The translations under genes and the position numbers were made by a program. This document shows positions 19,451 to 32,784 of a stretch of DNA of 64,000 nucleotides, piece after piece (the stretch's first letter is position 1; every line of letters starts with the position of its first letter). The stretch lies in NCBI RefSeq assembly GCF_025717515.1, contig NZ_JAJIRN010000002.1, positions 310,001 through 374,000 of the forward strand, in the 5' to 3' direction. Under the pieces are notes generated by a model. That model had not been told where the DNA came from. It worked only from the letters and a program-made list of their open reading frames with translations, and made no database searches. This stretch comes from Roseateles oligotrophus. GTDB lineage: Bacteria > Pseudomonadota > Gammaproteobacteria > Burkholderiales > Burkholderiaceae_C.

Positions 19451-20086
19451 TTAAAAGCCCAGACTCGCCAACAAATCATCAACTTCGCCCTGGTCGGCCA
19501 CGATGTCGGTACGACCTTCTGGGTTGACGACCGGGCCTTGCAGAATATTGGGATCGACCTTTTCGCGCTGCTCGGGCGGCACGATGGACACCAGCAACTT
19601 GACCAAGCTGTCTTCCAGATCATTCGCCAGCGTCACCACCTTGGCAACCACCTGGCCGGTCAGGTCATGAAAGTCCTGCGCCATCATGATGTCGGTCAGA
19701 TGGCCGTCGATGCGCGCCGTGCGGGCCTCGACTTCCTTGACGAAGTTCAGCACCGCTCCACTGGCCACCGCCTTGACCGGATCGGCCACCAGGGCCGCTG
19801 CAATTTCGTTGGTCGCGTTGGTGATGTAGGCATGGTCGACCTTGGCCTCATCGACGGAATTCAACACTTTATTGGCCGCCGCCGCCGTCTTGGTGGCGAT
19901 GTAGCTGAGGCGACTGCGCGCATCAGGCAAGCCGTCGGTTGCCACCTGCAACTTGGGCATCACACCGAGTTGCTGCATGGTGTCGTGCAACACCCGCGTG
20001 ATAGTACCGATCTGCTGAAAAACCTCGGGCGAGACCGACAGCGGATCGGTGCCCGTATGCAATTTGCTCAATGCTTCAATAGACAT
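19451..20086 (-). CDS. cheZ: CheY-P phosphatase CheZ
   Basis: A 211-residue, mainly helical protein. The block IMMAQDFHDLTGQVVAKV contains the Asp and Gln of the CheZ active centre, and the C-terminal QGEVDDLLASLGF is the CheY-binding amphipathic peptide seen in CheZ proteins. It speeds dephosphorylation of CheY-P and so ends the tumble signal. It lies 18 bp downstream of cheY and is followed by a strong terminator, which marks the end of the motA-motB-cheY-cheZ operon. Confidence 0.94.
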   Translation of the reverse strand: MSIEALSKLHTGTDPLSVSPEVFQQIGTITRVLHDTMQQLGVMPKLQVATDGLPDARSRLSYIATKTAAAANKVLNSVDEAKVDHAYITNATNEIAAALVADPVKAVASGAVLNFVKEVEARTARIDGHLTDIMMAQDFHDLTGQVVAKVVTLANDLEDSLVKLLVSIVPPEQREKVDPNILQGPVVNPEGRTDIVADQGEVDDLLASLGF

Positions 20087-20104
20087 GTTGTATCTCCCTC
20101 GGAA

Positions 20105-20497
20105 TCAGGCCGCTGCGGCCAGTTTTTGCATGATCTTCAGGACCTTTTCTTCCAGGGTCGCCTTGGTGAAGGGCTTGACGATATAGCCCGCCGCGCCCGA
20201 CTGCGCCGCCAGCACAATGTCTTCCTTGCGCGCTTCGGCGGTCACCATCAGCACCGGCAGATGCTTCAAATTGGGATCTTCCTTGATCGCCTTGAGCAAT
20301 TCGAAGCCGGTCATATTAGGCATATTGATGTCGCTGACGACAAAGTCGTACTTGGCCACCTTGAGCATGCTGAGGGCCTCAACACCATCTTCGGCTTCAT
20401 CGCAGTTGTTATAGCCAATCTCCTTTAACAGGCCGCGCACAATGCGCCGCATCGTAGAGAAATCGTCAACAACCAAAAATTTCATGTCTGTGCTCAT
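20105..20497 (-). CDS. cheY: Chemotaxis response regulator CheY
   Basis: A 130-residue single-domain receiver. The acidic pair is in [15 protein letters not shown], the phospho-acceptor Asp in [13 protein letters not shown], the Thr/Ala switch in VLMVTAEA and the Lys in GYIVKPFT. Phosphorylated CheY binds the N-terminal peptide of FliM, also encoded in this window. The start at 20497 has GAGG six bases upstream. It is 26 bp after motB and 18 bp before cheZ. Confidence 0.96.
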
Positions 20498-20523
20498 GGC
20501 TTTCCTCGCAGGGCTAGAGAGTT

Positions 20524-21474
20524 TTATCGGGGCTTGGTGGCGGAACTTGAGGGACTATTTTCAACTCCGGCTTCCGCAGGAGCCGGGGTTGATTCTTCTT
20601 GAGGCAAATTCTTCAACACAGCATCCTCGGCATCGCGGTTCATCACAATAATGCTAATGCGTCGATTGATCGGACTTTCGGGCTGTTTGGGGTCAAGCAA
20701 TTTGCTCGCCGCCAAGCCCTGCACCCTCAGCGTACGCGCTTCCGGTAGACCGCCTGCACTTAATTCCCGGCGCGAAGCATTGGCCCGGTCGGCCGACAAC
20801 TCCCAATTGCTATAGCCCCGGTCGCCCGCAGAGAAGGGCTGCGCATCGGTATGCCCCTCCAGCGTCAAGCGATTGGGCACTTCAGACAACACGCCGCCCA
20901 ATTCGCGCAGCAATTGCTTCATATAAGGTTTTACGACGGCGCTGCCGCTATCGAACATCGGCCGGCCCTCTTCATCCGCGATCTGAATCCGCAAACCTTC
21001 CAGTGTCATATCAAGTTTGATCTGACCGCCGAGAGAGCTCAGCTGTGGATTATTGGCCAAGACCTTTTCGACTTTATCCTTCAATTCCTCAAGCCGAGCA
21101 CGCTCGGCTTTTCGTTGCTCTTCTTTCAGCGCACGCAGATTGAAGGTGCGCTTTTGCGCATCGACGTCACCTGACTTGACCTGCCCGGTTTCGCGACTCA
21201 AGTCCTTGCCGCCGCCCTTGACCACGTGGGAGGAGTCGCCCGAGCCGGAGCCGCCCTGCATCGCCACCTTGAGCGGCGAGCCGAAGAAGTCGGCAATACC
21301 TTTTTTGTCACCCTCGGTGGTAGAACCGAGCAACCACATCAATAGAAAGAACGCCATCATCGCGGTCACAAAGTCGGCGTAGGCAATCTTCCAGGCGCCA
21401 CCATGACTCGGGTGCCCGCCCTTCTTGACGCGCTTGATGATGATGGGTTGGAGCTTTTTTGCGTCACCGGCCAT
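20524..21474 (-). CDS. motB: Stator protein MotB
   Basis: A 316-residue protein with a short basic N-terminus, one membrane helix containing the proton-binding Asp ([20 protein letters not shown]), a plug/linker region and an OmpA-like peptidoglycan-binding domain ([31 protein letters not shown]). It anchors the MotA4MotB2-type stator to the wall. It is separated from motA by an unusually long 237 bp spacer that carries a duplicated hairpin-forming repeat. Confidence 0.96.
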
Positions 21475-21496
21475 ATGGAGCCCCCACGTCGCCGGT

Positions 21497-21671
21497 TACG
21501 GCTCCTGCCCCCCGAGGGGGTGCCGTCCGCTTTGGGAGCGGCCCGGCAGCGAACTTGATTCTGTTTGCCCCACCGTCGTCAAGTACGGTTCCTGCCCCCA
21601 TGGACCGGAACAGGTCCATTTCATGGCCCTGGGGTGCCGTCCGCTTTGGGAGCGGCCCGGCAGCGGACTTG
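21497..21671. repeat. Duplicated palindromic intergenic repeat between motA and motB
   Basis: A 41 bp block occurs at 21517-21557 and again at 21631-21671 with a single mismatch; both are preceded by a matching TACGG(C/T)TCCTGCCCCC stretch (from 21497 and 21584). Each block can fold: CCGCT-TTGGG-AGCGG as a short hairpin, or GTCCGCT with AGCGGAC around it in the second copy. The second copy has ~27 extra bases with their own inverted repeat (TGGACC/GGTCCA, 21601-21618). It resembles REP-type extragenic palindromes. In the motA-motB mRNA the hairpins could tune stability or relative expression (inference). Confidence 0.75.
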
Positions 21672-21711
21672 TAGCCCCCCATGGCCGTCACTTCTATCAG
21701 AGGCTCGGCCA

Positions 21712-22572
21712 TCACTTCTTGCCCTTCACATGGGCTTCCAGTTCGCCGAAGGTCGGGCGGTCGCCGGAGAAGAGTACCTTGCGGCCAAACTCGATCGCCA
21801 CCTGCGGGGCATAGCCCTGCATGCTAGCCAGCAAGGTGGTCTTGATGCACTGCAATTCCTTGCCCGCATCTTCGACTTTTTGTTCCAGCAGACCAGCCAA
21901 AGGTTCGGCAAAGGCATAGGCCAGCAAAATGCCGAGGAAGGTTCCGACCAGCGCCGAACCGATCATGCCGCCCAACACGGCTGGGGGCTGCCCCACCGAG
22001 CCCATGGTATTCACCACACCCAGCACCGCCGCCACGATGCCGAATGCCGGCAGACCGCCGGCAATGCGCTGAATCGCGGCCACAGCGGCATGCTCTTCGG
22101 CATGATGCGTGTCGATCTCGTTGTCCATCAAGGATTCAATCTCATGTGCATTGAGGTTGCCCGACACCATCATACGAAGGTAGTCGGTGATGAATTCGGT
22201 GACATGGTGGTCGTTGCCCACGGTCGGATATTTTTGAAACAGCGCTGAGCTATGCGGATCTTCAACGTCCTTTTCAATTGACATCAGACCTTCTTTACGG
22301 GCTTTTTGCAAGATGTCGTACATCAGCGCCAGCAGCTCCATATAACGAGCCTTGCTGAACTTGCTGCCCTTGAAGCAGCGGCCCAAACCGGCCAAGGTGC
22401 CCTTCACGACCTTCATCTGATTGTTGGCCAGAAACGCCCCGATGGCGGCACCAAAAATGGTGATCATCTCGAACGGCAGCGCGTGCAAGATCACCATGAT
22501 ATTGCCGCCGTGGAATATGTAGACGCCGAAGATGCAAACCATCGCGACGGCCCAACCGATGAAGACAAACAT
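21712..22572 (-). CDS. motA: Stator protein MotA
   Basis: A 286-residue protein with four membrane segments (for example FIGWAVAMVCIFGVYIF at the start and AFGIVAAVLGVVNTMG later) and a large cytoplasmic loop (~60-165) that contacts FliG. The conserved GGLPAFGIVAAVLGVV block fits the MotA proton-channel family. I start at ATG 22572, which places the first membrane helix right at the N-terminus; the frame is open to 22683 but the extra residues are hydrophilic and the sigma28-like promoter lies within them. The next gene, motB, follows after the repeat-bearing spacer. Confidence 0.95.
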   Translation of the reverse strand: MFVFIGWAVAMVCIFGVYIFHGGNIMVILHALPFEMITIFGAAIGAFLANNQMKVVKGTLAGLGRCFKGSKFSKARYMELLALMYDILQKARKEGLMSIEKDVEDPHSSALFQKYPTVGNDHHVTEFITDYLRMMVSGNLNAHEIESLMDNEIDTHHAEEHAAVAAIQRIAGGLPAFGIVAAVLGVVNTMGSVGQPPAVLGGMIGSALVGTFLGILLAYAFAEPLAGLLEQKVEDAGKELQCIKTTLLASMQGYAPQVAIEFGRKVLFSGDRPTFGELEAHVKGKK

Positions 22573-22600
22573 AATGCTTTCTTTTGAGGGTTTCCTGCCC

Positions 22601-22627
22601 TTATCGGCGGGATAGTTGAGGCCTTGA
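22601..22627 (-). promoter_or_regulatory. Sigma28 promoter upstream of motA
   Basis: On the minus strand a perfect GCCGATAA -10 box (22601-22608) follows TCAAGGCC (22620-22627) with an 11-base spacer, close to the FliA consensus TAAAGTTT-N11-GCCGATAA. It ends 28 bp before the motA start, so motA-motB-cheY-cheZ is probably a class III operon as well as possible read-through from flhC. Confidence 0.75.
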
Positions 22628-22660
22628 GTGTGGCAACAGTTTTTGCGGGCGGTCTGCGCA

Positions 22661-23443
22661 TCAAACCGGTTTTGACGGTTCAATCGAGCCTATTGCCCCA
22701 TGCCGAGCATGCTCAGACACTGGTAGACGATAGACCCACAAACTGTGTCCTCGACTCAAAGGCAGCGTGGTGTGTGCCACCTGACCGGCAATCTCGAAGT
22801 CAAGGCTGATCAGCCATGCCCCGGCCGCCATCTCAAGGCTGGCCTTGGCCCAAACCCTTTCCATCGTCTCGGGGCGCTGAAACACATAGACGAGCGCAAA
22901 CGGCGCCCAGTCTTGCGTCCACATATCGCCCCGATGGATCTTTGCCCAAGGGCAGCGCCAAGCCGCCATGCGCGCCAACAAACCACTCCATTCGATACCC
23001 TCTATACACGCGTCGGGGTAGGCCAGGCGCAACTCCCGCAGACCATGGCCCAGGCCGCAGCCGGCGTCGAGCAGCCGAGCACCGCTTGGCAAGGGCGCCC
23101 AGCCACGCAGCGCCGACAGGGCCCCCTGCGGTGTAGGGAACCAAGGCGCATCGGTCCAAGTACGGCGCGGGTAGGCCAGGGCCAACAACGCCAACGGCAA
23201 CAGCCAAGCCCAAGCCGGCAAGGCCGCTGCGCGCAGAACCACCAGCATCGACAAAGGGAAACCAAGGGCAACGATCAGACGCCGCCATCGTGCCTGATGC
23301 AGCAGAGCCAAGCCGCCACCCAAGAGAGCCGCGGCAAACACAGCCGGGCCGAGCGCGAATCCCGTCGCCGTCAAGCCCGTAAAGGCCACCCACGCGACAG
23401 CCCAACTCAATAAAGCGGGCAATGGCCAACGCAGCAAGTGCAT
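22661..23443 (-). CDS. Class I SAM-dependent methyltransferase with N-terminal membrane segments
   Basis: A 260-residue protein. The first ~95 residues are strongly hydrophobic with several probable membrane helices, and the rest is a Rossmann methyltransferase domain with the SAM-binding motif ARLLDAGCGLGHGLREL (~125). Its place between flhC and motA, on the same strand, suggests expression with motility genes. The substrate is unknown; a link to flagellin or surface modification is only inference from the nearby fliB and glycosyltransferase genes. It ends 88 bp before motA. Start ATG at 23443 lacks a strong ribosome binding site. Confidence 0.8.
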   Translation of the reverse strand: MHLLRWPLPALLSWAVAWVAFTGLTATGFALGPAVFAAALLGGGLALLHQARWRRLIVALGFPLSMLVVLRAAALPAWAWLLPLALLALAYPRRTWTDAPWFPTPQGALSALRGWAPLPSGARLLDAGCGLGHGLRELRLAYPDACIEGIEWSGLLARMAAWRCPWAKIHRGDMWTQDWAPFALVYVFQRPETMERVWAKASLEMAAGAWLISLDFEIAGQVAHTTLPLSRGHSLWVYRLPVSEHARHGAIGSIEPSKPV

Positions 23444-23489
23444 TTACGGCGGCGCGAGCGGACGGATGGGCGTTGAAGCGAGGCGTCCT

Positions 23490-24026
23490 TTAGTGCATCT
23501 GGATCGAGCCTTGAGCCCGACCCTTGCCGGCACGGGCCGGCGGATTGCACATGCCGCAGACATAGTGGCGGGCAATTTCATGCGGATGGGTGACAAAGTG
23601 GCCACCGCAATCCGAGCATTTGGTCATCGTCAACATGCCGTTATCGATGAATTTCACCAGGCGCCATGCACGGGTGATCGACAGCATCGCTTCCAGTCCC
23701 TGCGCCTGTGTCTGCTCTTGGTAGAGCTGATAGGCCTTGATGACGGCATCGATTTCATCCAGTTCCGACACCTTGTTCAGATATTCATGCACATTCAAGA
23801 ACAGCGACGCATGAATATTGGGTTGCCATGTCATGAACCAATCGGTCGAGAACGGCAGTTGGCCTTTGGACGGGCTCTTGCCCGAGACCTCTTTGTACAG
23901 GCGCAGCAGGCGCTCATAGGACAGATCGGTCTCCGACTCCAACACTTGCAGGCGCGCACCCAGATTGATCAGGGTAACGGCACGGCTGATCTGCAGGGCT
24001 TCGGTGAGGATGCTTTTGTTGCGCAT
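23490..24026 (-). CDS. flhC: Flagellar master regulator subunit FlhC, copy 1
   Basis: A 178-residue protein with the FlhC zinc site made of two CxxC pairs (CSDC and CGMC, ~135-160) and the typical YERLLRLYKEVSGKSPSKG region. FlhC with FlhD forms the hetero-hexamer that activates class II flagellar promoters. A second copy at 27058-27594 differs at nine positions by my reading, including S-D-C to S-E-C next to the zinc Cys and N to K after the last Cys. It is 39 bp after flhD copy 1. Confidence 0.95.
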   Translation of the reverse strand: MRNKSILTEALQISRAVTLINLGARLQVLESETDLSYERLLRLYKEVSGKSPSKGQLPFSTDWFMTWQPNIHASLFLNVHEYLNKVSELDEIDAVIKAYQLYQEQTQAQGLEAMLSITRAWRLVKFIDNGMLTMTKCSDCGGHFVTHPHEIARHYVCGMCNPPARAGKGRAQGSIQMH

Positions 24027-24065
24027 GATGGAGTCTCGATTCTTTGTCTTGTGCGGGGAAAGGGA

Positions 24066-24389
24066 TCAGGCAGCTTCTTGGTGACGGCCGGCCATCAGGA
24101 TGCTGGCGTGAAGTCTCGACACGCCGTCGTTGGCTGCGGTCTTGCCATGACTGGTCAGCAGACCCCAGACCAAGTCGTCATCCATGCGGAAGCGGCACAG
24201 CAAGGTGTTGCCGGAGGCAATCTTCATCAACTGCGCCGGGCTCAGGGTCGAGATCAGGGTCGCCGTGTCCTCGGACACGCCCAAACGGTACAGCGCTTGC
24301 TCGCGGTCGGCGCGAATCAGGTTCTGCGCCAACATCAAGTAGGACAGATTGGCTTCACGGATTTCGGCGAGGATTTGGTCTGCGTTCAT
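24066..24389 (-). CDS. flhD: Flagellar master regulator subunit FlhD, copy 1
   Basis: A 107-residue helical protein; EIREANLSYLMLAQNLIR and ALYRLGVSEDTATLI are typical FlhD blocks. The start at 24389 is supported by GGAG seven bases upstream and by identity with copy 2, although the frame is open a little further. It differs from copy 2 (27634-27957) at three residues by my reading. The upstream region contains a dyad-symmetric element conserved between the two copies. Confidence 0.95.
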   Translation of the reverse strand: MNADQILAEIREANLSYLMLAQNLIRADREQALYRLGVSEDTATLISTLSPAQLMKIASGNTLLCRFRMDDDLVWGLLTSHGKTAANDGVSRLHASILMAGRHQEAA

Positions 24390-24414
24390 GTTCGGGCTCC
24401 AGTTTGTTTGGCTG

Positions 24415-24445
24415 CACAACTCGTAACAACTTGATACGAATTGTG
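24415..24445. promoter_or_regulatory. Candidate operator upstream of flhDC copy 1
   Basis: CACAACTCGT (24415-24424) and ACGAATTGTG (24436-24445) are near-perfect inverted copies (9 of 10), with centres 21 bp, about two helical turns, apart. The same dyad with the same spacing occurs before flhDC copy 2, within a block that is otherwise conserved too. Position 26 bp before the flhD start fits a regulator site near the promoter; the binding protein is unknown. Confidence 0.5.
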
Positions 24446-24591
24446 AAGACTTGAACAAGCCGGCAACATCAGCCTAAATCCAGCGCTTGAGTCCCTTTTC
24501 TTCCCTTGGCTCTGTCAGGTAACTTCCTACACGGGCGACTCTGTTTTGGCGAGTCTCCCAGGAGGATCTTGTCCTTGTAGGGCAAAAGCTG

Positions 24592-25857
24592 TCAGCCAAC
24601 CAGCGTCGCCAGCACTTCCATGCGCAAGGCATCGTTGTCCTTCAAGGACTGCAGAACCATCGGCATAAAGCGATGGTTGTGTTCGATATTGCGCGCCACG
24701 ACATAGGTCACTTGGACGCACTCGTCCAGACCAAATGGATGCTCAGGGCGCGCTGCGAGAGCCTGCAAATAGAACTTGATCAGCGCAAAGCGAACCGCCA
24801 GCGCCATGAAGTCGGACTCCAGTGCGGCGGTGTCATTGCGTGGGAACATGGTGATGACCAGACTATTGAGTAAATAGTTCTTCAAAGCATAGGGGTGCGC
24901 TGCGTCGAATTCTTTCAACCGAGTAGCACCCCGGGGCGCCTCGCCTTGCAGGCCCTCCCGCACTTCAGCGATCAAGGCCCGAAACGAGGGGCGCCCCCCA
25001 TGGTCAGTCAAGAACTTCTGCGTGGCCCCCATCAGCAGCGAGGCCTGCACCTGCTGGGGAATATTCAGGCCCTGCACATGAGCACCGGCATGGGCCAAGA
25101 AGTCTGGATCCAGATACTGTGCAAAGGCATCGGACAGACCCTGATCCGCAAGCGCTGCAGCAGCGTCCGGCTTTGCGGACTGGGCCGCAACATCAGTCGC
25201 AACATCGGCCGCCACCTTGGCAACCTGGCGCAACAAAAGCCCGCTCACGACCAAGGCCTGCGCAGCGCTCAGATCGGGATGCTTGATCACCACTGTCAAG
25301 GCCTCACGCAAGAGACGAGCATGGCGGCGCACCAAGTCGGGCTCACCGGCCGCAACGGGGCCCAGGCGCCGGTTGATGGGCACCAGACTGGCATTGGCGA
25401 ATGGCAAGGCGAGGCCTTCCATTTCCACAGCGTCGGCCGAGGCCAAGGCCAAGCGCGCTGCTTCCGGGCAACTCAGGCTGGCAGCCACGCCAATTTGCTC
25501 TCCCTCCAGGGTGTAGATGCGAGGGTACTGGCTGCAGGTATTGGACAAAGCCTGGGCACCCAAACCGGCATGAATCTGGCAGAGCTTGGCCTCATCCAAA
25601 AAGGGGCATGCCTGCTCGCCGTTCAACGCGATTGACGCGTAGCTCTTGCCCACCGAGATCGAGCCGGTATTTTTCTGCACATGCTGCCGCATCAGGCTCG
25701 CCAGCGGTTCGCCCTTGATCGATTGGTACTTCTGATAAGTCGGCTTATCGATGGAAACGCGCCAACCGGTACAGCAGTTTTCAATGCAAGCGGCCCCAAT
25801 GCATTGAAAACTCCGCAGATAGCGCGGTGCCTGAGCGACCGGACTGAATTTACCCAT
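24592..25857 (-). CDS. fliB: Flagellin lysine-N-methylase FliB
   Basis: A 421-residue protein with the Cys-rich pattern of the FliB family: CIGAACIENCCTGWRVSID near the N-terminus and CPFLDEAKLCQIHAGLG, then SNTCSQYPR (~90-120). FliB methylates Lys side chains of flagellin, and the Cys cluster suggests an Fe-S centre and radical-type chemistry (family knowledge). Three flagellin genes lie 4 kb away. Start ATG at 25857 has GAGG upstream; a TTG at 25872 is less likely. It lies between the two flhDC copies and ends about 200 bp before flhD copy 1. Confidence 0.9.
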   Translation of the reverse strand: MGKFSPVAQAPRYLRSFQCIGAACIENCCTGWRVSIDKPTYQKYQSIKGEPLASLMRQHVQKNTGSISVGKSYASIALNGEQACPFLDEAKLCQIHAGLGAQALSNTCSQYPRIYTLEGEQIGVAASLSCPEAARLALASADAVEMEGLALPFANASLVPINRRLGPVAAGEPDLVRRHARLLREALTVVIKHPDLSAAQALVVSGLLLRQVAKVAADVATDVAAQSAKPDAAAALADQGLSDAFAQYLDPDFLAHAGAHVQGLNIPQQVQASLLMGATQKFLTDHGGRPSFRALIAEVREGLQGEAPRGATRLKEFDAAHPYALKNYLLNSLVITMFPRNDTAALESDFMALAVRFALIKFYLQALAARPEHPFGLDECVQVTYVVARNIEHNHRFMPMVLQSLKDNDALRMEVLATLVG

Positions 25858-25989
25858 CGGTGTGAACCTCAAGTCAAAACAAGATGACGGCGGTGAGCCT
25901 AACCCACGGTAGAACTCGGCAGGCCCGGGAAACCCGCATCCGCACCATTTGATGAGCGTCAGCAGGGCTGCCGCCGGTTGCGTGGCTTG

Positions 25990-27042
25990 TCAAGCTGGAA
26001 AGGCCTGGCGCAAATCGCTTGCCTCTTGCTCACGCCCGGTGCCTTCCAGCACCAAAGCCAAGTTGTGCGCAGCCAGATGACTGCCCCGCCCTGCCACGGC
26101 TCCGGTCAAATCAGGCCGTTCACCCAACTCCAGGCAACGCCGCCAAGCATCCTCAATCATCGGCAGCAGTTGCGACGCTTGTTCAGGCGTATCGGCGGCA
26201 AAGTCCAGCAGCAGATCGCCCAAGGCGAAGAAAAAATCCGGCGACGCTGCGCAAATCTCCAATTGCGTTTGTGCGAACTGCACACCCACCTCATGTTTCT
26301 TCAGTTGTTTGAGCGCAAACAGTCGGCGCGCAACCAAATCAAACCACCACCCCTGTTCGGGATGCGGCAGCGTCGCGGCTTTCTCGAAGTATTGTTCGGC
26401 ATGCGCATGTTCGTCATAGACGGCACAGTCTTTGCCGAGCTGGTACCAAAGATAGGCTTGCTCGGGATACGCCTGCAACTCCTGCATCAACAGTCGCTGA
26501 TTGCGCCCACGCTTGGATTGCAGCAACTCGGGCAAATAGCCGTCATGCCCGACGCTGATGTTCAAGGCACGAATCGGCAAGGCATGGACCGGCTGCTCAT
26601 GAATGCGCCCGCGGTAGCGCAGCGCTCCGGGCAACACGCGCGACAGTCTCGAATGCGCATGGCGGAGTTCGCCGTCCATGAATTGGTCCAGCAAGTCGAT
26701 GGTGCCGACAAAGTCGGGCGGCGTTTGACGCAAGGAGGCCAACACCTCCCCGCCCGAGATCAACCATTCATCGGCGTCAAGCAGCAGATGCCAATCGGCA
26801 TCCGCTGCGGCGACGGCGGCATTGCGTGCGGCGGCAAAGTCGTCGCACCAATGAAAGCGTTCAACGCGGGCACCGCATGCCGCAGCCAAGGCCGGTGTCG
26901 CATCGACCGAACCGGTGTCCAGCACCAGCATCTGATCGACCCAGGGCCGCACGCTGTTCAGCAAGCGCTCGATGCGGGCGGCCTCATCACGCGCGATCAC
27001 CACCAGGCAGGTTCGCGTCGCAGCAGCGGCAGGGCAGACCAT
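25990..27042 (-). CDS. GT2-family glycosyltransferase with C-terminal TPR-like region
   Basis: A 350-residue protein. The N-terminal GT-A domain starts CLVVIARDEAARIERLLNSV and has the metal-binding D-x-D in LLLDADEW (~88-94). The C-terminal half is helical (QELQAYPEQAYLWYQLGKDC, then AEQYFEKAATLP) and TPR-like. Such enzymes often modify proteins or cell-surface glycans. It starts 15 bp after flhC copy 2 with AGAGG before the ATG, so translation is probably coupled to the flagellar regulator; a role in flagellin glycosylation is the favoured inference. GTG at 27045 is an alternative start. Confidence 0.85.
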   Translation of the reverse strand: MVCPAAAATRTCLVVIARDEAARIERLLNSVRPWVDQMLVLDTGSVDATPALAAACGARVERFHWCDDFAAARNAAVAAADADWHLLLDADEWLISGGEVLASLRQTPPDFVGTIDLLDQFMDGELRHAHSRLSRVLPGALRYRGRIHEQPVHALPIRALNISVGHDGYLPELLQSKRGRNQRLLMQELQAYPEQAYLWYQLGKDCAVYDEHAHAEQYFEKAATLPHPEQGWWFDLVARRLFALKQLKKHEVGVQFAQTQLEICAASPDFFFALGDLLLDFAADTPEQASQLLPMIEDAWRRCLELGERPDLTGAVAGRGSHLAAHNLALVLEGTGREQEASDLRQAFPA

Positions 27043-27057
27043 CACCGCCTCTCTCGC

Positions 27058-27594
27058 TCAATGCATCTGAATCGAGCCCTGGGAGCGACCCTTGCCGGCG
27101 CGGGCCGGTGGCTTGCACATACCGCAAACATAGTGGCGAGCGATTTCGTGCGGATGAGTGACGAATTGGCCACCACATTCCGAGCACTTGGTCATCGTCA
27201 ACATGCCGTTATCAATGAACTTCACCAAGCGCCAAGCGCGCGTCACCGACAGCATCGCCTCCAAGCCTTGGGCCTGTGTCTGCTCCTGGTAGAGCTGGTA
27301 GGCCTTGATGACGGCGTCGATTTCGTCCAGCTCCGACACCTTGTTCAGATACTCGTGCACATTCAAGAACAACGAAGCATGGATGTTCGGCTGCCAAGTC
27401 ATGAACCAATCGGTCGAGAACGGCAGTTGGCCCTTGGACGGACTCTTGCCCGAGACCTCTTTGTACAAGCGCAACAAACGCTCGTAGGACATGTCTGTCT
27501 CCGACTCCAGCACCTGCAGGCGTGCACCCAGGTTGATCAAAGTAACGGCACGGTTGATCTGAACTGCTTCGGTGAGGATGCTTTTTGCGCGCAT
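27058..27594 (-). CDS. flhC: Flagellar master regulator subunit FlhC, copy 2
   Basis: A 178-residue FlhC nearly identical to copy 1, with zinc-site pairs CSEC and CGMC intact. Nine residue differences are spread over the protein and none hits a zinc Cys, so both copies look functional. It is followed 15 bp later by the glycosyltransferase, whereas copy 1 is followed by a methyltransferase and motA. The two master operons therefore differ in downstream cargo. Confidence 0.95.
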   Translation of the reverse strand: MRAKSILTEAVQINRAVTLINLGARLQVLESETDMSYERLLRLYKEVSGKSPSKGQLPFSTDWFMTWQPNIHASLFLNVHEYLNKVSELDEIDAVIKAYQLYQEQTQAQGLEAMLSVTRAWRLVKFIDNGMLTMTKCSECGGQFVTHPHEIARHYVCGMCKPPARAGKGRSQGSIQMH

Positions 27595-27633
27595 GATGGA
27601 GTCTCGGTTTTCTAATTGACTGGGGGATTGAAA

Positions 27634-27957
27634 TCAAGCCGCTTCTTGATGGCGACCGGCCATCAAAATGCTGGCATGCAAGCGTGAGACACCGTCATTC
27701 GACGCGGTCTTGCTATGGCTGGTCAGCAAGCCCCAGACCAGATCGTCATCCATGCGGAAGCGGCACAGCAAGGTATTGCCGGAGGCGATCTTCATCAACT
27801 GAGCCGGGCTCAGCGTGGCGATCAGCGTCGCCGTGTCCTCGGACACTCCCAAACGATAGAGAGCCTGCTCGCGGTCGGCGCGAATCAAGTTCTGCGCCAA
27901 CATCAGGTAGGACAGATTGGCTTCACGGATTTCGGCGAGGATTTGGTCTGCGTTCAT
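27634..27957 (-). CDS. flhD: Flagellar master regulator subunit FlhD, copy 2
   Basis: A 107-residue FlhD, identical to copy 1 except for three residues by my reading (S to A in LIATLS, G to S and A to S in HSKTASN). The coding frame is intact. It should form the FlhD4C2 activator with either FlhC. The upstream sequence repeats that of copy 1 over about 140 bp, including the dyad element, so both operons may answer to the same regulator. Confidence 0.95.
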   Translation of the reverse strand: MNADQILAEIREANLSYLMLAQNLIRADREQALYRLGVSEDTATLIATLSPAQLMKIASGNTLLCRFRMDDDLVWGLLTSHSKTASNDGVSRLHASILMAGRHQEAA

Positions 27958-27979
27958 TTGAGGCTCCGGTTTTTGTCTT

Positions 27980-28010
27980 CACGATTCGTAACAACTTGAT
28001 ACGGATTGTG
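27980..28010. promoter_or_regulatory. Candidate operator upstream of flhDC copy 2
   Basis: CACGATTCGT (27980-27989) and ACGGATTGTG (28001-28010) form an imperfect inverted repeat with the same 21 bp spacing as the dyad before copy 1. The half-sites have changed more than the TTGAT core between them, so affinity may differ from copy 1. Confidence 0.45.
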
Positions 28011-28153
28011 AAGACTCAAACAAGGCAGCAACATCAGCCTAAATCCAGCCCTTGAGTCCGGCTTCTTCCCAGAGCCTTGTCAGGTAAGTTCCTACAGGGC
28101 TGCTCGCAAATGCAGGCGCTGCCCCGGAGCGCGCCATGTCAGCGCACGGCCAA

Positions 28154-28633
28154 TCATCCCAACAACTTATCGAGCCTGGCCAGCTCGGTTTGTGCCACCG
28201 GGTACAGATCCGGAGCTTCACTCATCAAGCTCAACAGGGCTTCACCTTGCAAAAGCTGACGCAGCGTTTGCCTGGCCAGCAGGGCCGAGCCCTGGCCGCT
28301 TTGAGCGAATGCCAGCGTGTATAGGCTGGCGCCATGCTCTGCGGAAATCGCCAGAGCCTGCCTAGCATAGGACTCGGCATGCTTAAGTTCGCCGGCACTC
28401 AGCAGCAGGGCAGCCATATCACTGAGCAACTCATGAGCCATAGGCTCTTGCTCAAGCGCATCCATCAATACCATCAAACCCTCTCCGACCCGCCCGTGGG
28501 CAGCCTCGGCGTAGGCGGCATTACGTGCCTGCGCCAGCAGCCAAGCGGCCTCGGCGCTGATTTCCCTAGCTTCAGGCTTCAGCGCCATGGCTTGCTGGGG
28601 GGCTTTCGTCATCGCTTGCGTCATTGCATGCAT
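28154..28633 (-). CDS. TPR-like helical protein
   Basis: A 159-residue, Ala/Leu-rich protein. Helix pairs such as AELLSDMAALLLSAGELKHAES-type segments (ALEQEPMAHELLSDMAALLL, AESYARQALAISAEHGASLY) have the W/Y-L-G-A-Y-A spacing of tetratricopeptide repeats. No catalytic domain is seen. It lies upstream of flhDC copy 2 on the same strand and between that operon and the flagellin genes, so a role as an accessory in flagellin modification or secretion is possible but unproven. The ATG at 28633 has CGGAG six bases upstream; the frame is open to 28732. Confidence 0.7.
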   Translation of the reverse strand: MHAMTQAMTKAPQQAMALKPEAREISAEAAWLLAQARNAAYAEAAHGRVGEGLMVLMDALEQEPMAHELLSDMAALLLSAGELKHAESYARQALAISAEHGASLYTLAFAQSGQGSALLARQTLRQLLQGEALLSLMSEAPDLYPVAQTELARLDKLLG

Positions 28634-29163
28634 GTGAATCTCCGAGAGGTTAAGTCCAGTCATCGCCTGCGCCATCTGCCGATCCAAGCGGCAAGTTTTG
28701 CCAAAGAGGATAGGCGGAGCCCAGCGTTCCAATAAAGATCAAAATCAGTTTGGTCCCAATCCATGCAGTCGCACGTTAGCGCCAAACAGCTTGCAGATTG
28801 AGAGGTGCGCCTGCGCGCACGTCTCGACGGCAATGTGGGGGACTTTAGGGTGGAGCACGAAAGCCATTCGACGAATAAGCGCGCCGAAGCTGGCGCTTAT
28901 CAAAACCTCTACCTGGCCGAGCCAGCCGAAAACAAGTCAGGGCGCGCAAGACAAGAAGCTCATTCTCTCTTGCCCTCTTTCAGCTACTCAGAATCACCTA
29001 GATTTCAAGGATCCCGCAAGAACCGTAAAGCCCGAGCAAAACCAGCGCCGACCTGCCCCAGCAGCTTCGCGCCCCCCTCCAAACCAGGTCGGCGGCAGCG
29101 AATCCAAGAACAGGGCCAGAACCCCGGCGCTTATCAACAGATCAAGCCTCTTGACAAAAGCGC
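28634..29163. other. Long intergenic region upstream of fliC1
   Basis: About 530 bp between the divergent TPR gene and the fliC1 promoter. Reading frames here have no protein-like pattern. A perfect 8 bp inverted repeat, ATAAGCGC (28875-28882) and GCGCTTAT (28893-28900), could form a hairpin or a regulator site. GGCGCTTATCAA recurs at about 29127, nearer the promoter. Confidence 0.45.
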
Positions 29164-29191
29164 TTAAGTTCGCCTTTGCGCAGGCCGATAC
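29164..29191 (+). promoter_or_regulatory. Sigma28 promoter of fliC1
   Basis: TTAAGTTC (29164-29171), a 12-base spacer, then GCCGATAC (29184-29191), close to the FliA consensus TAAAGTTT-N11-GCCGATAA. It lies about 220 bp before the flagellin start, giving a long 5' leader. Confidence 0.75.
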
Positions 29192-29409
29192 CAACTTAAC
29201 GGGTCTGGAAACAGATGCGTGGTCCGGTAGGTAGGCCGCCAAGTTGAGTACTTCATCTGATGGAGCACGGAGCAGCAACGGTTACCTGGCGCCGGGCGAG
29301 GCGGGTCAAGGTCGCAAGACCGAAGACCCTAATCTCGGAAATTCACCCGAATGACCGAATCACGTCGGCGCTTAGCCGGGAATCTTCGTAGCTGAAACAG
29401 GAGCACATC

Positions 29410-30249
29410 ATGCCCGCAATCATCAATTCCAATATTGCCTCACTGAACGCGCAACGCAATGTTGCAACTTCGCAGAACTCGCTGGCTGTCGCCATGCAGC
29501 GCTTGTCCTCTGGACTGCGAGTCAACTCCGCCAAAGACGATGCCGCCGGTCTGTCGATCGCCGAACGGATGACCGCTCAAGTACGCGGCATGAACGTCGC
29601 GGTTCGAAACGCCAATGACGGTATCTCTTTGTCGCAAACCGCTGAAGGCGCCTTAGGCAAAATCGGCGATTCGCTGCAGCGTATGCGTGAATTGGGTGTA
29701 CAGGCCCGTAACGCGACGAACACCACCACCGACTTGGACTCGATCGGCAAGGAATTCTCCGAACTTGGCGCGGAAATTCAGCGCGTCGCGTCCGGCACCA
29801 CCTTCAACGGCAAAGCAATCATCGGCGCAGGAGCGGGGGCTCAGCTATTCCAAATTGGGGCGAACACAACGACCAACGACTCGGTCACGGTGACGACCAC
29901 GAACATGGCCGGCAACGCCGACATCACAGCGGTGACCTCCGATGTGATCGACAACACAAAAACGGCGGCCGACCTGAAAACCACCATTGACAATATTGAT
30001 ACGGCCATCAGTACGGTCAGCTCAGAACGCGCCTCGTTGGGTGCCTCGCAAAATCGCTTTGACGCGGTGATCTCGAACCTGATGGTGTCGGTGGAAAACC
30101 AAACTGCATCGCGCAGCCGGATTCTGGACACAGACTACGCAACCGAGACGGCCAATCTGAGTCGATCGCAGATCCTGCAGCAAGCCGGTACGGCCATGAT
30201 TGCACAAGCCAATCAGATGCCACAGAACGTGCTCTCCTTGCTTCGATGA
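29410..30249 (+). CDS. fliC: Flagellin 1
   Basis: A 279-residue short flagellin. The N-terminal D0/D1 region begins MPAIINSNIASLNAQRN and contains RLSSGLRVNSAKDDAAGLSIA; the C-terminal D1/D0 has QNRFDAVISNLMVSVENQTASRS-type sequence and ends QNVLSLLR. The central variable domain is only ~80 residues, so D2/D3 are essentially absent. It has its own sigma28 promoter and a strong terminator. Two paralogues follow; this one lacks the final GG seen at the end of the others and carries a Thr-rich centre. It is a likely target of FliB and the glycosyltransferase. Confidence 0.97.
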   Translation: MPAIINSNIASLNAQRNVATSQNSLAVAMQRLSSGLRVNSAKDDAAGLSIAERMTAQVRGMNVAVRNANDGISLSQTAEGALGKIGDSLQRMRELGVQARNATNTTTDLDSIGKEFSELGAEIQRVASGTTFNGKAIIGAGAGAQLFQIGANTTTNDSVTVTTTNMAGNADITAVTSDVIDNTKTAADLKTTIDNIDTAISTVSSERASLGASQNRFDAVISNLMVSVENQTASRSRILDTDYATETANLSRSQILQQAGTAMIAQANQMPQNVLSLLR

Positions 30250-30330
30250 CCCCGGGCCAGCCCAGCTGGCCCTGAGTTCACCCGTCGGAGCAGGAACGGA
30301 TAGCCTCACCCCTCCAGCACAAGCCCCTTG

Positions 30331-30386
30331 ACGCCACCCATAATGCCGCCTTTGAGCAGCATCCCAGCGATGGGTGGCGTTTTTTT
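30331..30386 (+). terminator. Terminator after fliC1
   Basis: ACGCCACCCAT (30331-30341) pairs perfectly with ATGGGTGGCGT (30370-30380) and is followed by seven T. The loop is long (28 bases). It isolates fliC1 from fliC2. Confidence 0.85.
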
Positions 30387-30398
30387 GAAAGAAACTAT

Positions 30399-30426
30399 TC
30401 AAGTCAATCCAAGGTGTCTCCGATAA
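30399..30426 (+). promoter_or_regulatory. Sigma28 promoter of fliC2
   Basis: TCAAGTCA (30399-30406), a 12-base spacer and TCCGATAA (30419-30426) match the FliA pattern, with the same spacer length as the fliC1 promoter. It sits just after the fliC1 terminator and about 220 bp before fliC2, the same leader length as fliC1. Confidence 0.7.
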
Positions 30427-30644
30427 CAAGTCAACGGGTCCGAGGAAGTGAATGGACTACGTGGTCCGGTTAACCGGCCCTGTACAGACCTCCAATTCCG
30501 GGGGTTAACAGGACAGGCGGCGGACGGTGCAAAGCAGCGGAATTATCCGTGTGCATTGCTGGCAAAGCTGCCTCCTCAAGCAGCCTAGTTATCGAACCGT
30601 GAGACCGGGTTTCCGGCAAGTCTTAGACACCGAAAGGATTGAAA

Positions 30645-31490
30645 ATGCCCTCCATCATCAATACCAATATTGGCTCGCTGAACGCTCAACGCAACACCGC
30701 AGGCACACAGCTTTCTTTGGCCACCTCAATGCAACGCCTGTCTTCGGGCATGCGGGTCAATTCATCCAAGGATGATGCGGCCGGCTTGGCGATTGCAGAA
30801 CGAATGGGTTCGCAAATCAGAGGCATGAACGTTGCAGTCCGCAACGCCAATGACGGCATCTCCTTGTCGCAAACGGCTGAAGGCGCCTTATCAAAAGTGG
30901 GGGACTCCTTGCAGCGCATGCGTGAGCTGGGGGTGCAAGCCCGTAACGCCACGAACACCACCACCGATTTGGACTCGATCGGCAAGGAGTTCACCGAGTT
31001 GGGCGCCGAAATCCAGCGCGTCCTGGCCGGCACAACCTTCAACGGCAAAGCCGTTCTGGGCTCCGAAGCAGGTGCTCAATTGTTCCAAATCGGCGCCAAT
31101 ACAACCAACAACGATGCGGTCACGGTCACCACCGTAAATATGACGACCGACGCTGATATCACCGCAGTGACGACGGATACCATCGATAACACCAAGACGG
31201 CGGCCGACTTGAAGACCACCATCGACAACATCGACGTAGCCATCAACACCGTCAGCTCCAACCGAGCCACACTGGGTGCTGCCCAGAATCGCTTTGAGGC
31301 AGTGATCTCCAATCTGATGGTCTCGGTCGAGAATCAGAGTTCAGCGCGCAGTCGCATCATGGATGCCGACTATGCGTCGGAGACGGCCAACTTGAGTCGT
31401 GCGCAGATTTTGCAGCAGGCAGGCTCAGCGATGATTTCGCAAGCCAACCAGATGCCGCAACAAGTGTTGTCGCTGCTGCGTGGCGGCTGA
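30645..31490 (+). CDS. fliC: Flagellin 2
   Basis: A 281-residue flagellin closely similar to flagellin 1 over the N- and C-terminal regions (MPSIINTNIGSLNAQRN at the start; QQVLSLLRGG at the end), with most differences in the first 30 residues and in the central Thr/Val-rich stretch. The start at 30645 is preceded by AAAGG with seven bases spacing. It has its own promoter and terminator, so the three flagellins can be controlled separately. Confidence 0.97.
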   Translation: MPSIINTNIGSLNAQRNTAGTQLSLATSMQRLSSGMRVNSSKDDAAGLAIAERMGSQIRGMNVAVRNANDGISLSQTAEGALSKVGDSLQRMRELGVQARNATNTTTDLDSIGKEFTELGAEIQRVLAGTTFNGKAVLGSEAGAQLFQIGANTTNNDAVTVTTVNMTTDADITAVTTDTIDNTKTAADLKTTIDNIDVAINTVSSNRATLGAAQNRFEAVISNLMVSVENQSSARSRIMDADYASETANLSRAQILQQAGSAMISQANQMPQQVLSLLRGG

Positions 31491-31531
31491 TAGAGAGACG
31501 GTGCCAGGTTTCACCTGATTTTTCAAAAAAT

Positions 31532-31572
31532 GGCTCCCGCCCCGACCCAGCGTCGGGCCGGGAGCCTTTTTT
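31532..31572 (+). terminator. Terminator after fliC2
   Basis: GGCTCCCG pairs with CGGGAGCC, and an inner CCCGAC pairs with GTCGGG around a five-base loop; six T follow (31567-31572). This is a strong intrinsic terminator. Confidence 0.92.
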
Positions 31573-31693
31573 ATGGGCGATGTTTCGCCCCTTTTTCGGA
31601 GCTTTGAAACAACTAAGCACTCAGAAAATTCGTTCATCGGGTTGGATTTATTGCCGACCCGGCGTTCGGAACAAGCGGCGGCCCTTGATGGCA

Positions 31694-31720
31694 TAAAGCT
31701 TGAAATGGCCGGGCGGAGAT
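31694..31720 (+). promoter_or_regulatory. Weak sigma28-like promoter of fliC3
   Basis: TAAAGCTT (31694-31701), 11 bases, then GCGGAGAT (31713-31720). The -35 is nearly perfect but the -10 matches the consensus at only about five of eight positions, so expression may be lower than for fliC1 and fliC2. Confidence 0.4.
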
Positions 31721-31802
31721 GGCGACTGAAGAACCTTGGGTTCGCAGCCACCACAGGACGCCGGCTTGACCGGAAGTTAGCGAATTTTGTAGGAGTGCTC
31801 AA

Positions 31803-32651
31803 ATGCCCCAGACCATTAACACCAATATTGCCTCGCTCAATGCGCAGCGCAATCTCAATATGTCGCAGGGTTCGCTGGCGGTGTCCATGCAACGTCTGTC
31901 GTCGGGTATGCGCGTGAACTCCGCCAAGGATGACGCGGCCGGCCTGGCGATTGCGGAACGCATGAACGCCCAGGTACGCGGCATGAATGTGGCGATTCGC
32001 AACGCGAACGACGGCATCTCGCTGGCGCAAACGGCTGAAGGTGCGCTGTCCAAGGTCGGCGACACCTTGCAACGAATGCGCGAGCTTTCGGTGCAATCGC
32101 GCAATGCCACCAACACCACCACCGACCTTGACTCGATCGGTGCGGAATACAGCGAGTTGGCCCAGGAAATAACGCGCGTGCTGGCCGGTACAACGTTCAA
32201 CGGCAAAAAGATTCTGGGTGTCGACGCGACTCTGCCGCAAGAATTCCAGGTCGGACCCAATACCGGCGCGGAAGACACCATCACGGTGGCCACCTCAGAC
32301 CTCACGGCCGACGCCACCATCACGACGGTGACTGGATCTTCCATCAGCAACGCCTCGACGACGGCCGACTTGGCGCTCGTGATCGAAAACCTTGATGTGG
32401 CGCTCAATACCGTCAGCAGTCAGCGCGCCACATTGGGCGCCTCTCAGAACCGATTTGAGGCGGTGATTTCAAACCTGCAGGTCTCGGTGGAAAACCAAAG
32501 CGCGGCGCGAAGCCGCATCATGGATGCCGACTACGCTGCGGAAACATCGAATCTGAGTCGGACTCAGATCCTGCAACAGGCGGGCAATGCGATGGTGGCT
32601 CAGGCCAACCAATTGCCACAGCAGGTATTGAGCCTGCTCAGAGGTGGCTAA
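31803..32651 (+). CDS. fliC: Flagellin 3
   Basis: A 282-residue flagellin, the most divergent of the three. It keeps the N-terminal SLNAQRNLNMSQGSLAVSMQ and C-terminal LSLLRGG blocks, but the ends of D1 read VQSRNATNTTT and QEITRVLAGTTFNGKK, and the centre (ATLPQEFQVGPNTGAEDT) is different in sequence. In other bacteria with several flagellins, the products occupy different filament zones; that is only a possibility here. It is followed by a hairpin terminator. Confidence 0.96.
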   Translation: MPQTINTNIASLNAQRNLNMSQGSLAVSMQRLSSGMRVNSAKDDAAGLAIAERMNAQVRGMNVAIRNANDGISLAQTAEGALSKVGDTLQRMRELSVQSRNATNTTTDLDSIGAEYSELAQEITRVLAGTTFNGKKILGVDATLPQEFQVGPNTGAEDTITVATSDLTADATITTVTGSSISNASTTADLALVIENLDVALNTVSSQRATLGASQNRFEAVISNLQVSVENQSAARSRIMDADYAAETSNLSRTQILQQAGNAMVAQANQLPQQVLSLLRGG

Positions 32652-32659
32652 GCGTCGAG

Positions 32660-32683
32660 ATGAGACCCGTAACAGGGTCTCAT
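32660..32683 (+). terminator. Hairpin terminator after fliC3
   Basis: ATGAGACCC (32660-32668) and GGGTCTCAT (32675-32683) form a perfect 9 bp stem with a six-base loop, 9 bp past the fliC3 stop. The T-run is weak. Confidence 0.65.
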
Positions 32684-32689
32684 TGACTC

Positions 32690-32736
32690 TCAAGAAGTCA
32701 CCAATATGGTCGATAGTGCAGATGCCTATCGACCAT
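32690..32736 (+). promoter_or_regulatory. Sigma28-like promoter of fliD with -10 inside a perfect palindrome
   Basis: TCAAGAAG (32690-32697), 11 bases, then GTCGATAG (32709-32716), which matches the FliA -10 at six of eight bases. The -10 is part of a perfect 11 bp inverted repeat, ATGGTCGATAG (32706-32716) and CTATCGACCAT (32726-32736). The palindrome could be a regulator site or an mRNA 5' hairpin. Confidence 0.55.
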
Positions 32737-32784
32737 TGGTCATTTTAAGAGCGCCCTTCACCAGGCGTTTCATGGAGCATCCAC

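Follow-up and report, generated by a model that had tools for sequence, protein, structure and literature searches.

Two flhDC units in the window

The window analysed here is a 64,000-nucleotide stretch of the Roseateles oligotrophus genome (contig NZ_JAJIRN010000002.1, positions 310,001 to 374,000), in which flhDC, the operon encoding the flagellar master regulator FlhD4C2, is present as two complete units. The units lie in direct repeat on the minus strand with a spacing of 3,568 bp, in the gene order 192-amino-acid protein gene, flhDC (unit B), glycosyltransferase (GT) gene, fliB, flhDC (unit A), methyltransferase-like (MT) gene, motA, motB, cheY, cheZ, and flhB. Unit B, the upstream, GT-linked copy (27957-27058), comprises flhD (27634..27957) and flhC (27058..27594), and unit A, the downstream, MT-linked copy (24389-23490), comprises flhD (24066..24389) and flhC (23490..24026). 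All four proteins score far above the curated Pfam cut-offs (137 bits against PF05247 for either FlhD; 282 and 284 bits against PF05280 for the FlhC of B and A, respectively), and both proteins of unit A, the unit compared with NCBIfam, agree with FlhD and FlhC. A search of the own genome (5.76 Mb) finds two FlhC genes, which are the window pair.

In both units, flhD and flhC are adjacent in this order and are preceded by an upstream region of their own, which probably regulates them. About 150 bp of this upstream DNA is duplicated too, such that the repeat extends to about 28099 in unit B and 24534 in unit A. Along the alignment, the two units show a sliding identity of 74-94% from position -100 to the flhC stop codon, 60% in the preceding bin, and 44-51% beyond. 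The initial annotation, made from the sequence alone, had described flhD and flhC as duplicated in direct repeat with their upstream regions; the nucleotide alignment of the units bears out its coordinates and shows the repeat to be real, with 88% identity in the coding DNA of flhD and 87% in that of flhC (12-13% different).

The FlhD copies differ at three residues (sites 47, 82, and 86) and the FlhC copies at nine (sites 3, 11, 14, 35, 117, 139, 143, 161, and 171), the same counts as those previously read by eye. Between the copies, the synonymous divergence (dS) is 0.68 for flhD and 0.79 for flhC, and the ratio of nonsynonymous to synonymous divergence (dN/dS) is 0.031 and 0.034, respectively. 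Cys137, Cys140, Cys157, and Cys160 of FlhC, which we take to be the four zinc-binding cysteines, are intact in both window copies, as annotated, and in 116 of the 116 units compared. The dN/dS of 0.03, together with a 19-bp box and the hexamer CACAAT in both promoters (see below), supports the earlier view that both copies look functional. A pseudogenized copy is not supported, as both copies are open and under purifying selection. Likewise, the import of one copy from afar is not supported, because both window copies fall inside a six-row clade (100/100) with those of the nearest named relatives, Paucibacter sp. TC2R-5 (L063) and B2R-40 (L064). Hereafter, L codes denote loci from named relatives, G codes genomes, and g codes genera.

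Could the pair be a duplicated or collapsed contig, as the initial annotation cautioned? Draft assemblies do break in or beside flhDC (L065, L066, L067, L068, L071, L148/L168, and L166). These breaks, however, suggest the collapse of real repeats, by which copies are hidden rather than invented, and the duplication is thus easily overlooked. The diverged window pair lies within a contig of 637,569 bases, and tandem copies are found in the one-contig genomes G004, G024, G091, and G272. The probability of an assembly artefact is therefore close to nil, and this explanation is ruled out as far as sequence allows.

Recurrence of tandem flhDC among relatives

The initial annotation set the pair against the single flhDC of most bacteria; two operons are no oddity of this genome, however, and are the rule in the genus. 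FlhC occurs in 14 of the 18 genus genomes (own included), and 13 of these 14 have at least two FlhC matches, while the 14th has a single partial match at a contig end; G004, which is one contig, carries three copies. Of 399 family genomes sampled from a larger group, FlhC is present in 291 and matched at least twice in 42. The search for related genomes with one versus two loci, as the annotation had suggested, yielded separate copies within 10 kb of each other in 15 of the 399, from six genera (g1, g8, g34, g75, g111, and g127). In the other 27 of the 42, the matches lie on different contigs or far apart, are partial, or belong to remote FlhC-like proteins; some partial matches may be collapsed repeats, and G343 looks like one broken FlhC gene. 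Nine family genomes (G043, G049, G060, G094, G133, G174, G209, G260, and G264) resemble the window in having more than one full FlhC, but these genes are separated by more than 30 kb or reside on different contigs; in the latter case, they may still be neighbours at broken ends, as perhaps in G094. The remote FlhC-like proteins (G003:C7:294123-294611, G101:C2, G309:C1, G388, and others) match most of the PF05280 profile at 24-52 bits; they are distant from the window pair and are perhaps SetCD/AcaCD-type mobile-element activators. None of the flagellar query genes is found in the region of the weak extra FlhC match in G003 (L167).

Among 79 named loci, 15 contain at least two FlhC genes inside the fetched stretch. 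The usual order in the intact tandem loci is 192-amino-acid protein gene, flhDC, GT, (fliB), flhDC, MT, motAB, cheYZ, flhB, and throughout the Paucibacter/Roseateles/Mitsuaria clade the core of this order, from the first flhDC to motAB-cheYZ, is found again with variations. The two flhDC units of L154 are about 280 bp apart without a GT, L155 has no match to the 192-amino-acid protein gene, in L145 and L153 the GT is preceded by about 3.3 kb and another flhDC, additional frames lie between the copies of L149 and L087, and several loci have up to about 4 kb of DNA between the 192-amino-acid protein gene and flhD. L145 holds three flhDC copies on a single contig, with flhD starts near 7408, 11916, and 14203, and its close relative L153/L166 has two tandem copies and a further flhC, partial at another contig end. 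Nine frames between or after the repeats elsewhere were picked by hand, and some may be wrong; in Pfam, they include an RCC1-repeat protein (L087), a TPR/family-41 glycosyltransferase (L139), and a GMC oxidoreductase (L072), and two frames each in L145, L149, and L139 have no match.

In the tree of the mot-che proteins, one starred clade of 36 loci consists of 23 duplicated, four contig-edge, and nine single-copy loci. The label "single" requires three changes on this tree and the label "dup" seven, with the contig-edge rows counted as other. Loci with one copy, inside the clade or close to it, have the GT before flhDC (L072) or after it with other genes between (L105, L116, and L139), while in L078, L079, L101, L102, L104, L112, and L140 flhDC leads directly into the MT gene, without a GT match. 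Such remnants fit losses from a duplicated ancestor, the flhDC-into-MT kind by loop-out between the repeats; a later gain of the second copy with fewer losses is a possible alternative. Thirty of the 32 GTs form one separate group in their own tree. The shared synteny suggests that the duplication may be older than the species that share it; the GT tree is partly discordant.

Likeness of the copies within genomes

We compared 24 within-genome pairs from 45 units of 22 genomes. The copy-to-copy identities (flhD/flhC, in %) are 100/100 in L155, L156, and L160, 100/99.8 in L084, 100/98.9 in L153, 98/97 in L070 and L149, 95-96/97-98 in L145, 94/96 in L069, 95/98 in L158, 90/98 in L154, and 89-93/92-99 in the Mitsuaria group (L087, L099, L103, L109, L113, L117, L131, and L159). 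The 19 genomes other than the window, L063, and L064 thus span 92-100% in flhC and 89-100% in flhD, as compared to 88/87 in the window, 92/86 in L063, and 90/88 in L064. In L155, L156, and L160, the identity is 100% throughout flhD, the spacer, and flhC, and 89, 95, and 100%, respectively, in the preceding 100 bp. The likeness ends sharply on the other side: in all 24 pairs, the identity drops to 45-55% in the 100 bp past flhC, from 86-100% in flhC. Same-position orthologues of sister species are diverged where the paralogues are identical, with dS values of 0.45/0.40 between L155 and L156 and 0.47/0.31 between L156 and L160.

By site counts, tree topology, and the approximately unbiased (AU) test, the paralogues of a genome resemble each other more than they resemble same-position copies in other species. 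The copies join directly by genome in 13 of the 22 genomes in the coding-DNA tree. In 224 of 231 species pairs, which share history and are not independent tests, the informative sites uniting the copies of one genome outnumber those uniting copies by position; the seven exceptions are the three pairs among the window, L063, and L064, and four pairs within the Mitsuaria group. A tree constrained to unite the 22 upstream copies in one clade, with three sets of identical rows exempt, is rejected (p-AU 3.5e-68). The clustering by genome, combined with the recurring gene order, points to an old tandem duplication whose copies have been kept alike by gene conversion.

The same clustering, and the zero coding divergence in L155, L156, and L160, would also arise if each lineage had duplicated flhDC recently and independently, and the GT tree, partly at odds with the mot-che tree, leans in that direction. 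Such recurrent duplication is nevertheless unlikely. Nearly all of the tandem loci have the same genes before, between, and after the units, the similarity stops at the flhC stop codon in every pair, and some position-specific sites are common to several lineages. Moreover, most of the Mitsuaria-group pairs shown are split between the two genes, with flhD sorting by position and flhC by genome: the genome:position site counts for flhD and flhC are 0:16 and 9:7 in L109-L113, 4:11 and 22:3 in L087-L117, and 2:8 and 14:6 in L099-L103, with L117-L131 as the exception (7:4 and 30:0). Both this discord and the unlike promoters of the group (see below) are accounted for by conversion that still covers flhC and seldom extends to flhD or the promoter, but not by a fresh duplication.

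A 19-bp dyad upstream of flhD

A 19-bp dyad, TGTAGGAAnTTACCTGACA, is present once in each flhDC promoter region of the window and nowhere else in the 5.76-Mb genome. On the minus strand, the box of unit B (TGTAGGAACTTACCTGACA, 28078..28096) lies at -139 of flhD and that of unit A (TGTAGGAAGTTACCTGACA, 24513..24531) at -142. Scanning the own genome with the form TGTAGGANNTTNCCTGACA at up to two mismatches returns these two sites, both before flhD genes, and the reversed control returns none. In the duplicated genomes, the dyad has the consensus TGTAGGAATTTGCCTGACA and lies 122-233 bp upstream of flhD. At least 14 of its 19 positions are matched before 45 of the 45 units, even where the remaining promoter differs; as a rough null, the best match on the other strand scores 10-14 in these units, mostly 10-12, and is itself raised by the dyad symmetry. 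In L160, the matches are on the reverse strand in both units. The best match is also on the reverse strand in the single-copy loci L112, L126, L134, L137, L169, and L172, and the dyad may thus work in either orientation. Across 150 family genomes, 60 have the dyad at up to one mismatch, with 70 sites in total, as compared to five for the reversed-pattern control. Forty of the 70 sites, in genomes where the place of FlhC is known, could be judged, and 34 of them are 476-651 bp upstream of flhC. By its look, the dyad may be a NarL/LuxR-type (GacA- or BvgA-like) site.

The hexamer CACAAT, a -10-like element by our reading, is at 28005..28010 in unit B and 24440..24445 in unit A (minus strand). 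It was first found to be invariant in 20 selected regions and was then checked over all units: all 29 of the duplicated units that do not belong to the Mitsuaria group have it, and so do 53 of 70 other units. Both window promoters carry the 19-bp box, and their identity over the last 100 bp is 82-85%. The two promoters are 46-52% identical over the same length within each of the eight Mitsuaria-group genomes, and 56% alike in L063. In unit 1 of L063, the box (-233) and CACAAT (-147) are each displaced by about 90 bp away from flhD relative to the sister species, which looks like an insertion of DNA ahead of the gene.

In L156, where the fully identical core does not include the box, the half-sites of the dyad are the same in both copies while the spacer differs (TGTAGGAATTTTCCTGACA and TGTAGGAAGAAACCTGACA); this suggests selection on the site of each copy. 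This bears on whether the second copy is a passive repeat without a function of its own, persisting through conversion and linkage. Nine single-copy loci exist inside the clade, and seven of them have an MT match no more than about 65 bp past flhC and no GT match in the stretch compared, as loop-out would leave. The L156 half-sites, the strong constraint in the diverged window pair, and the presence of at least two FlhC matches in nearly all of the FlhC-bearing genus genomes, however, make a passive second copy improbable.

Divergence in the window lineage

How do the copies behave in the lineage of the window itself? The window, L063, and L064 show the clearest sorting by position, with supports of 100/99 for the upstream copies and 97/77 for the downstream copies. 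Sites favoring position over genome number 28:9 between the window and L063, and 33:14 between the window and L064. Relative to these nearest relatives, the window pair is not more alike within the genome than by position, while relative to more distant genomes the window copies group together. Among the three loci, the MT-linked FlhC has a dN of 0 at a dS of 0.39-0.67, and the GT-linked FlhC has changed slightly (dN 0.002-0.010). Conversion appears to have largely stopped in this lineage, and the copies appear to be drifting apart.

The same split between copies is seen in L063 and L064 at eight of the nine FlhC differences and at one of the three in FlhD (with I for V at FlhC site 11 in L063). 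Moreover, the FlhC differences at 139, 143, and 161 are beside the zinc cysteines, where they may form a cluster, and unit B has the rarer residue at FlhC 161 and 171 and at FlhD 82. These features would fit a lineage that has evolved two FlhDC types with different promoter or partner preferences, forming separate hexamers for the motor and the filament-modification genes. Several of the changes are mild (V/I, M/L, E/D, and S/A), however, and the low dN/dS, the box common to both promoters, and the identical coding sequences of L155, L156, and L160, which leave no protein split there, render such subfunctionalized isoforms quite unlikely. A further observation concerns the window, L063, and L064: FlhC site 11 is hydrophobic in both window copies as compared to K/R in 108 of 114 other units, and site 14 is N/S as compared to E/D in 99 of 114.

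Proposed history and function

We propose, with a probability of roughly 65%, that an old duplication of flhDC was maintained by gene conversion, which has stalled in the window lineage, and that one activator expresses both copies, the products of which are pooled and raise the dosage.

Duplication: An ancestor inside the Paucibacter/Roseateles/Mitsuaria clade would have gained flhDC and its promoter as two direct repeats, in a single event, between the 192-amino-acid protein gene and the MT-mot-che genes. The GT, and in some species also fliB, would have come to lie between the repeats.

Homogenization: Gene conversion, confined to the promoter-proximal region and flhD-flhC (about 1 kb), would account for the likeness of the copies in many species. 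It would have largely ended in the window lineage, followed by slow divergence under strong purifying selection.

Expression: Each copy is probably transcribed from a promoter of its own, through one activator that would bind the 19-bp dyad. As selection acts on both, the transcription of only one copy is unlikely. The FlhD and FlhC proteins of both copies would then form one mixed FlhD4C2 population, and the main effect would be a higher dosage of the master regulator; the suggestion of dosage or mixed hexamers in the initial annotation fits this scheme. Each copy would lead its own downstream genes, unit B those for filament modification (GT and fliB) and unit A those for the motor and chemotaxis. 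Separate programmes for these two sets, which the annotation had also raised, may exist where the promoters (Mitsuaria group) or the proteins (window group) have diverged. They are more plausible in the eight Mitsuaria-group genomes, with their low promoter identity, than in the window, whose two promoters are alike and share the box.

Several observations weigh against this proposal. The copies are not joined by genome in nine of the 22 genomes (the window, L063, L064, L099, L103, L109, L113, L117, and L131), and nine clade loci have one copy on the available DNA, although L105 is cut at flhD and a neighbour may have been lost. The GT tree departs in part from the mot-che tree, as it nests the Mitsuaria-group GTs with those of the window genus (support 94 and 86, unstarred), and independent duplication at one place retains a small residual probability. 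CACAAT is found in none of the 16 Mitsuaria-group units, so that promoter parts are not kept throughout. Furthermore, the highest other-strand score among these units, reached in L063 and L064, is as high as the dyad threshold (14), 90 of the 150 family genomes lack the dyad at up to one mismatch (some without FlhC or with a more diverged box), and six of the 40 judged sites are located elsewhere than upstream of flhC. Finally, the window copies as sisters are not rejected (p-AU 0.092); together with the closer flhD than flhC copies of L063 (dS 0.36 and 0.89), this suggests that occasional conversion may continue.

The twin repeats may also have a wider role, which we consider unlikely: they could act as a platform for recombination where the flagellar locus begins, homogenizing each other and allowing the capture, loop-out, and exchange of flagellin-modification cassettes (GT, fliB, other genes, and even a third flhDC). 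In the window lineage, released from conversion, the two FlhDC isoforms could then be becoming distinct regulators of filament modification and the motor.

Comparison with known systems

FlhC of unit A is co-linear over residues 1-171 with 2avu_E (E 6.7e-58); with the cysteines retained and the Pfam cut-off passed, it resembles the FlhC of PDB 2avu and 8j56, which we take to be the FlhD4C2 master regulators of Escherichia coli or Salmonella. Unlike that system, the operons here are in tandem, have their own promoter regions, and are linked to mot-che and flagellin-modification genes. Duplicated genes are known to evolve in concert, and gene conversion between bacterial duplicates is known for tufA/tufB and the rRNA operons. 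Those cases share with flhDC the closeness of paralogues within a genome relative to orthologues and the sharp tract ends, but they are highly expressed housekeeping genes, whereas here a master-regulator operon is involved with its promoter.

Among the matches listed from the open-access literature, none is, by its title or the start of its abstract, on tandem flhDC in this clade, flhDC conversion, or the box, an absence that is no proof; the letters of the box together with flhD gave no match, and the passages of PMC2864759 found by term do not mention flhD or flhC. The proteins are ordinary FlhD and FlhC. FlhDC tops a dose-sensitive cascade and has been studied mostly as a single-copy operon. 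A clade with two (once three) copies, in some species identical in their coding DNA and in others diverging, offers a natural series on the purpose of second master-regulator copies and on when paralogues escape gene conversion, and the box, private to the two flhDC promoters of its own genome, provides a handle for finding the flhDC activator in these bacteria.

Neighbouring genes

The genes around the units are on the minus strand. Upstream of unit B, an open reading frame (28154..28732) encodes the 192-amino-acid protein; the TPR label was given to it from its look, and it has no Pfam or NCBIfam match. The family-2 GT gene (25990..27045; PF00535, with a SunS-like TIGR04195 match below the cut-off) starts 12 nucleotides past flhC of unit B, in line with the tight linkage annotated, and sits between the flhDC copies in most of the tandem loci of the clade. 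Between it and unit A lies fliB (24592..25872), for a flagellin lysine-N-methylase (NCBIfam NF038110, 197 bits, cut-off 85), which was absent from the initial annotation. Unit A leads, also as annotated, into the MT-like gene (22661..23443), 46 nucleotides past flhC, with a weak PF13489 match below the cut-off. It is followed by motA (21712..22572, likely ATG at 22572, open frame to 22683), motB (20524..21474), cheY (20105..20497), and cheZ (19451..20086), open reading frames whose putative names come from the initial annotation and from their look, and which served as queries in the comparison of loci.

A scan of window positions 20000-33000 with Rfam found no structured RNA leader at the gathering score, and the tRNA scan found no tRNA, as an integration site, in the flhDC region; six tRNAs are at window positions 53.8-61.1 kb. 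The motB-motA interval (window 21480-21671) contains two 41-bp copies, 98% identical and 114 bp apart, and a second repeat family of 33 bp. At window positions 29410-32651, three flagellin genes (279, 283, and 282 amino acids) stand in a row on the plus strand, heading away from flhDC, and the DNA of the first two is 75% identical over 300 bp.

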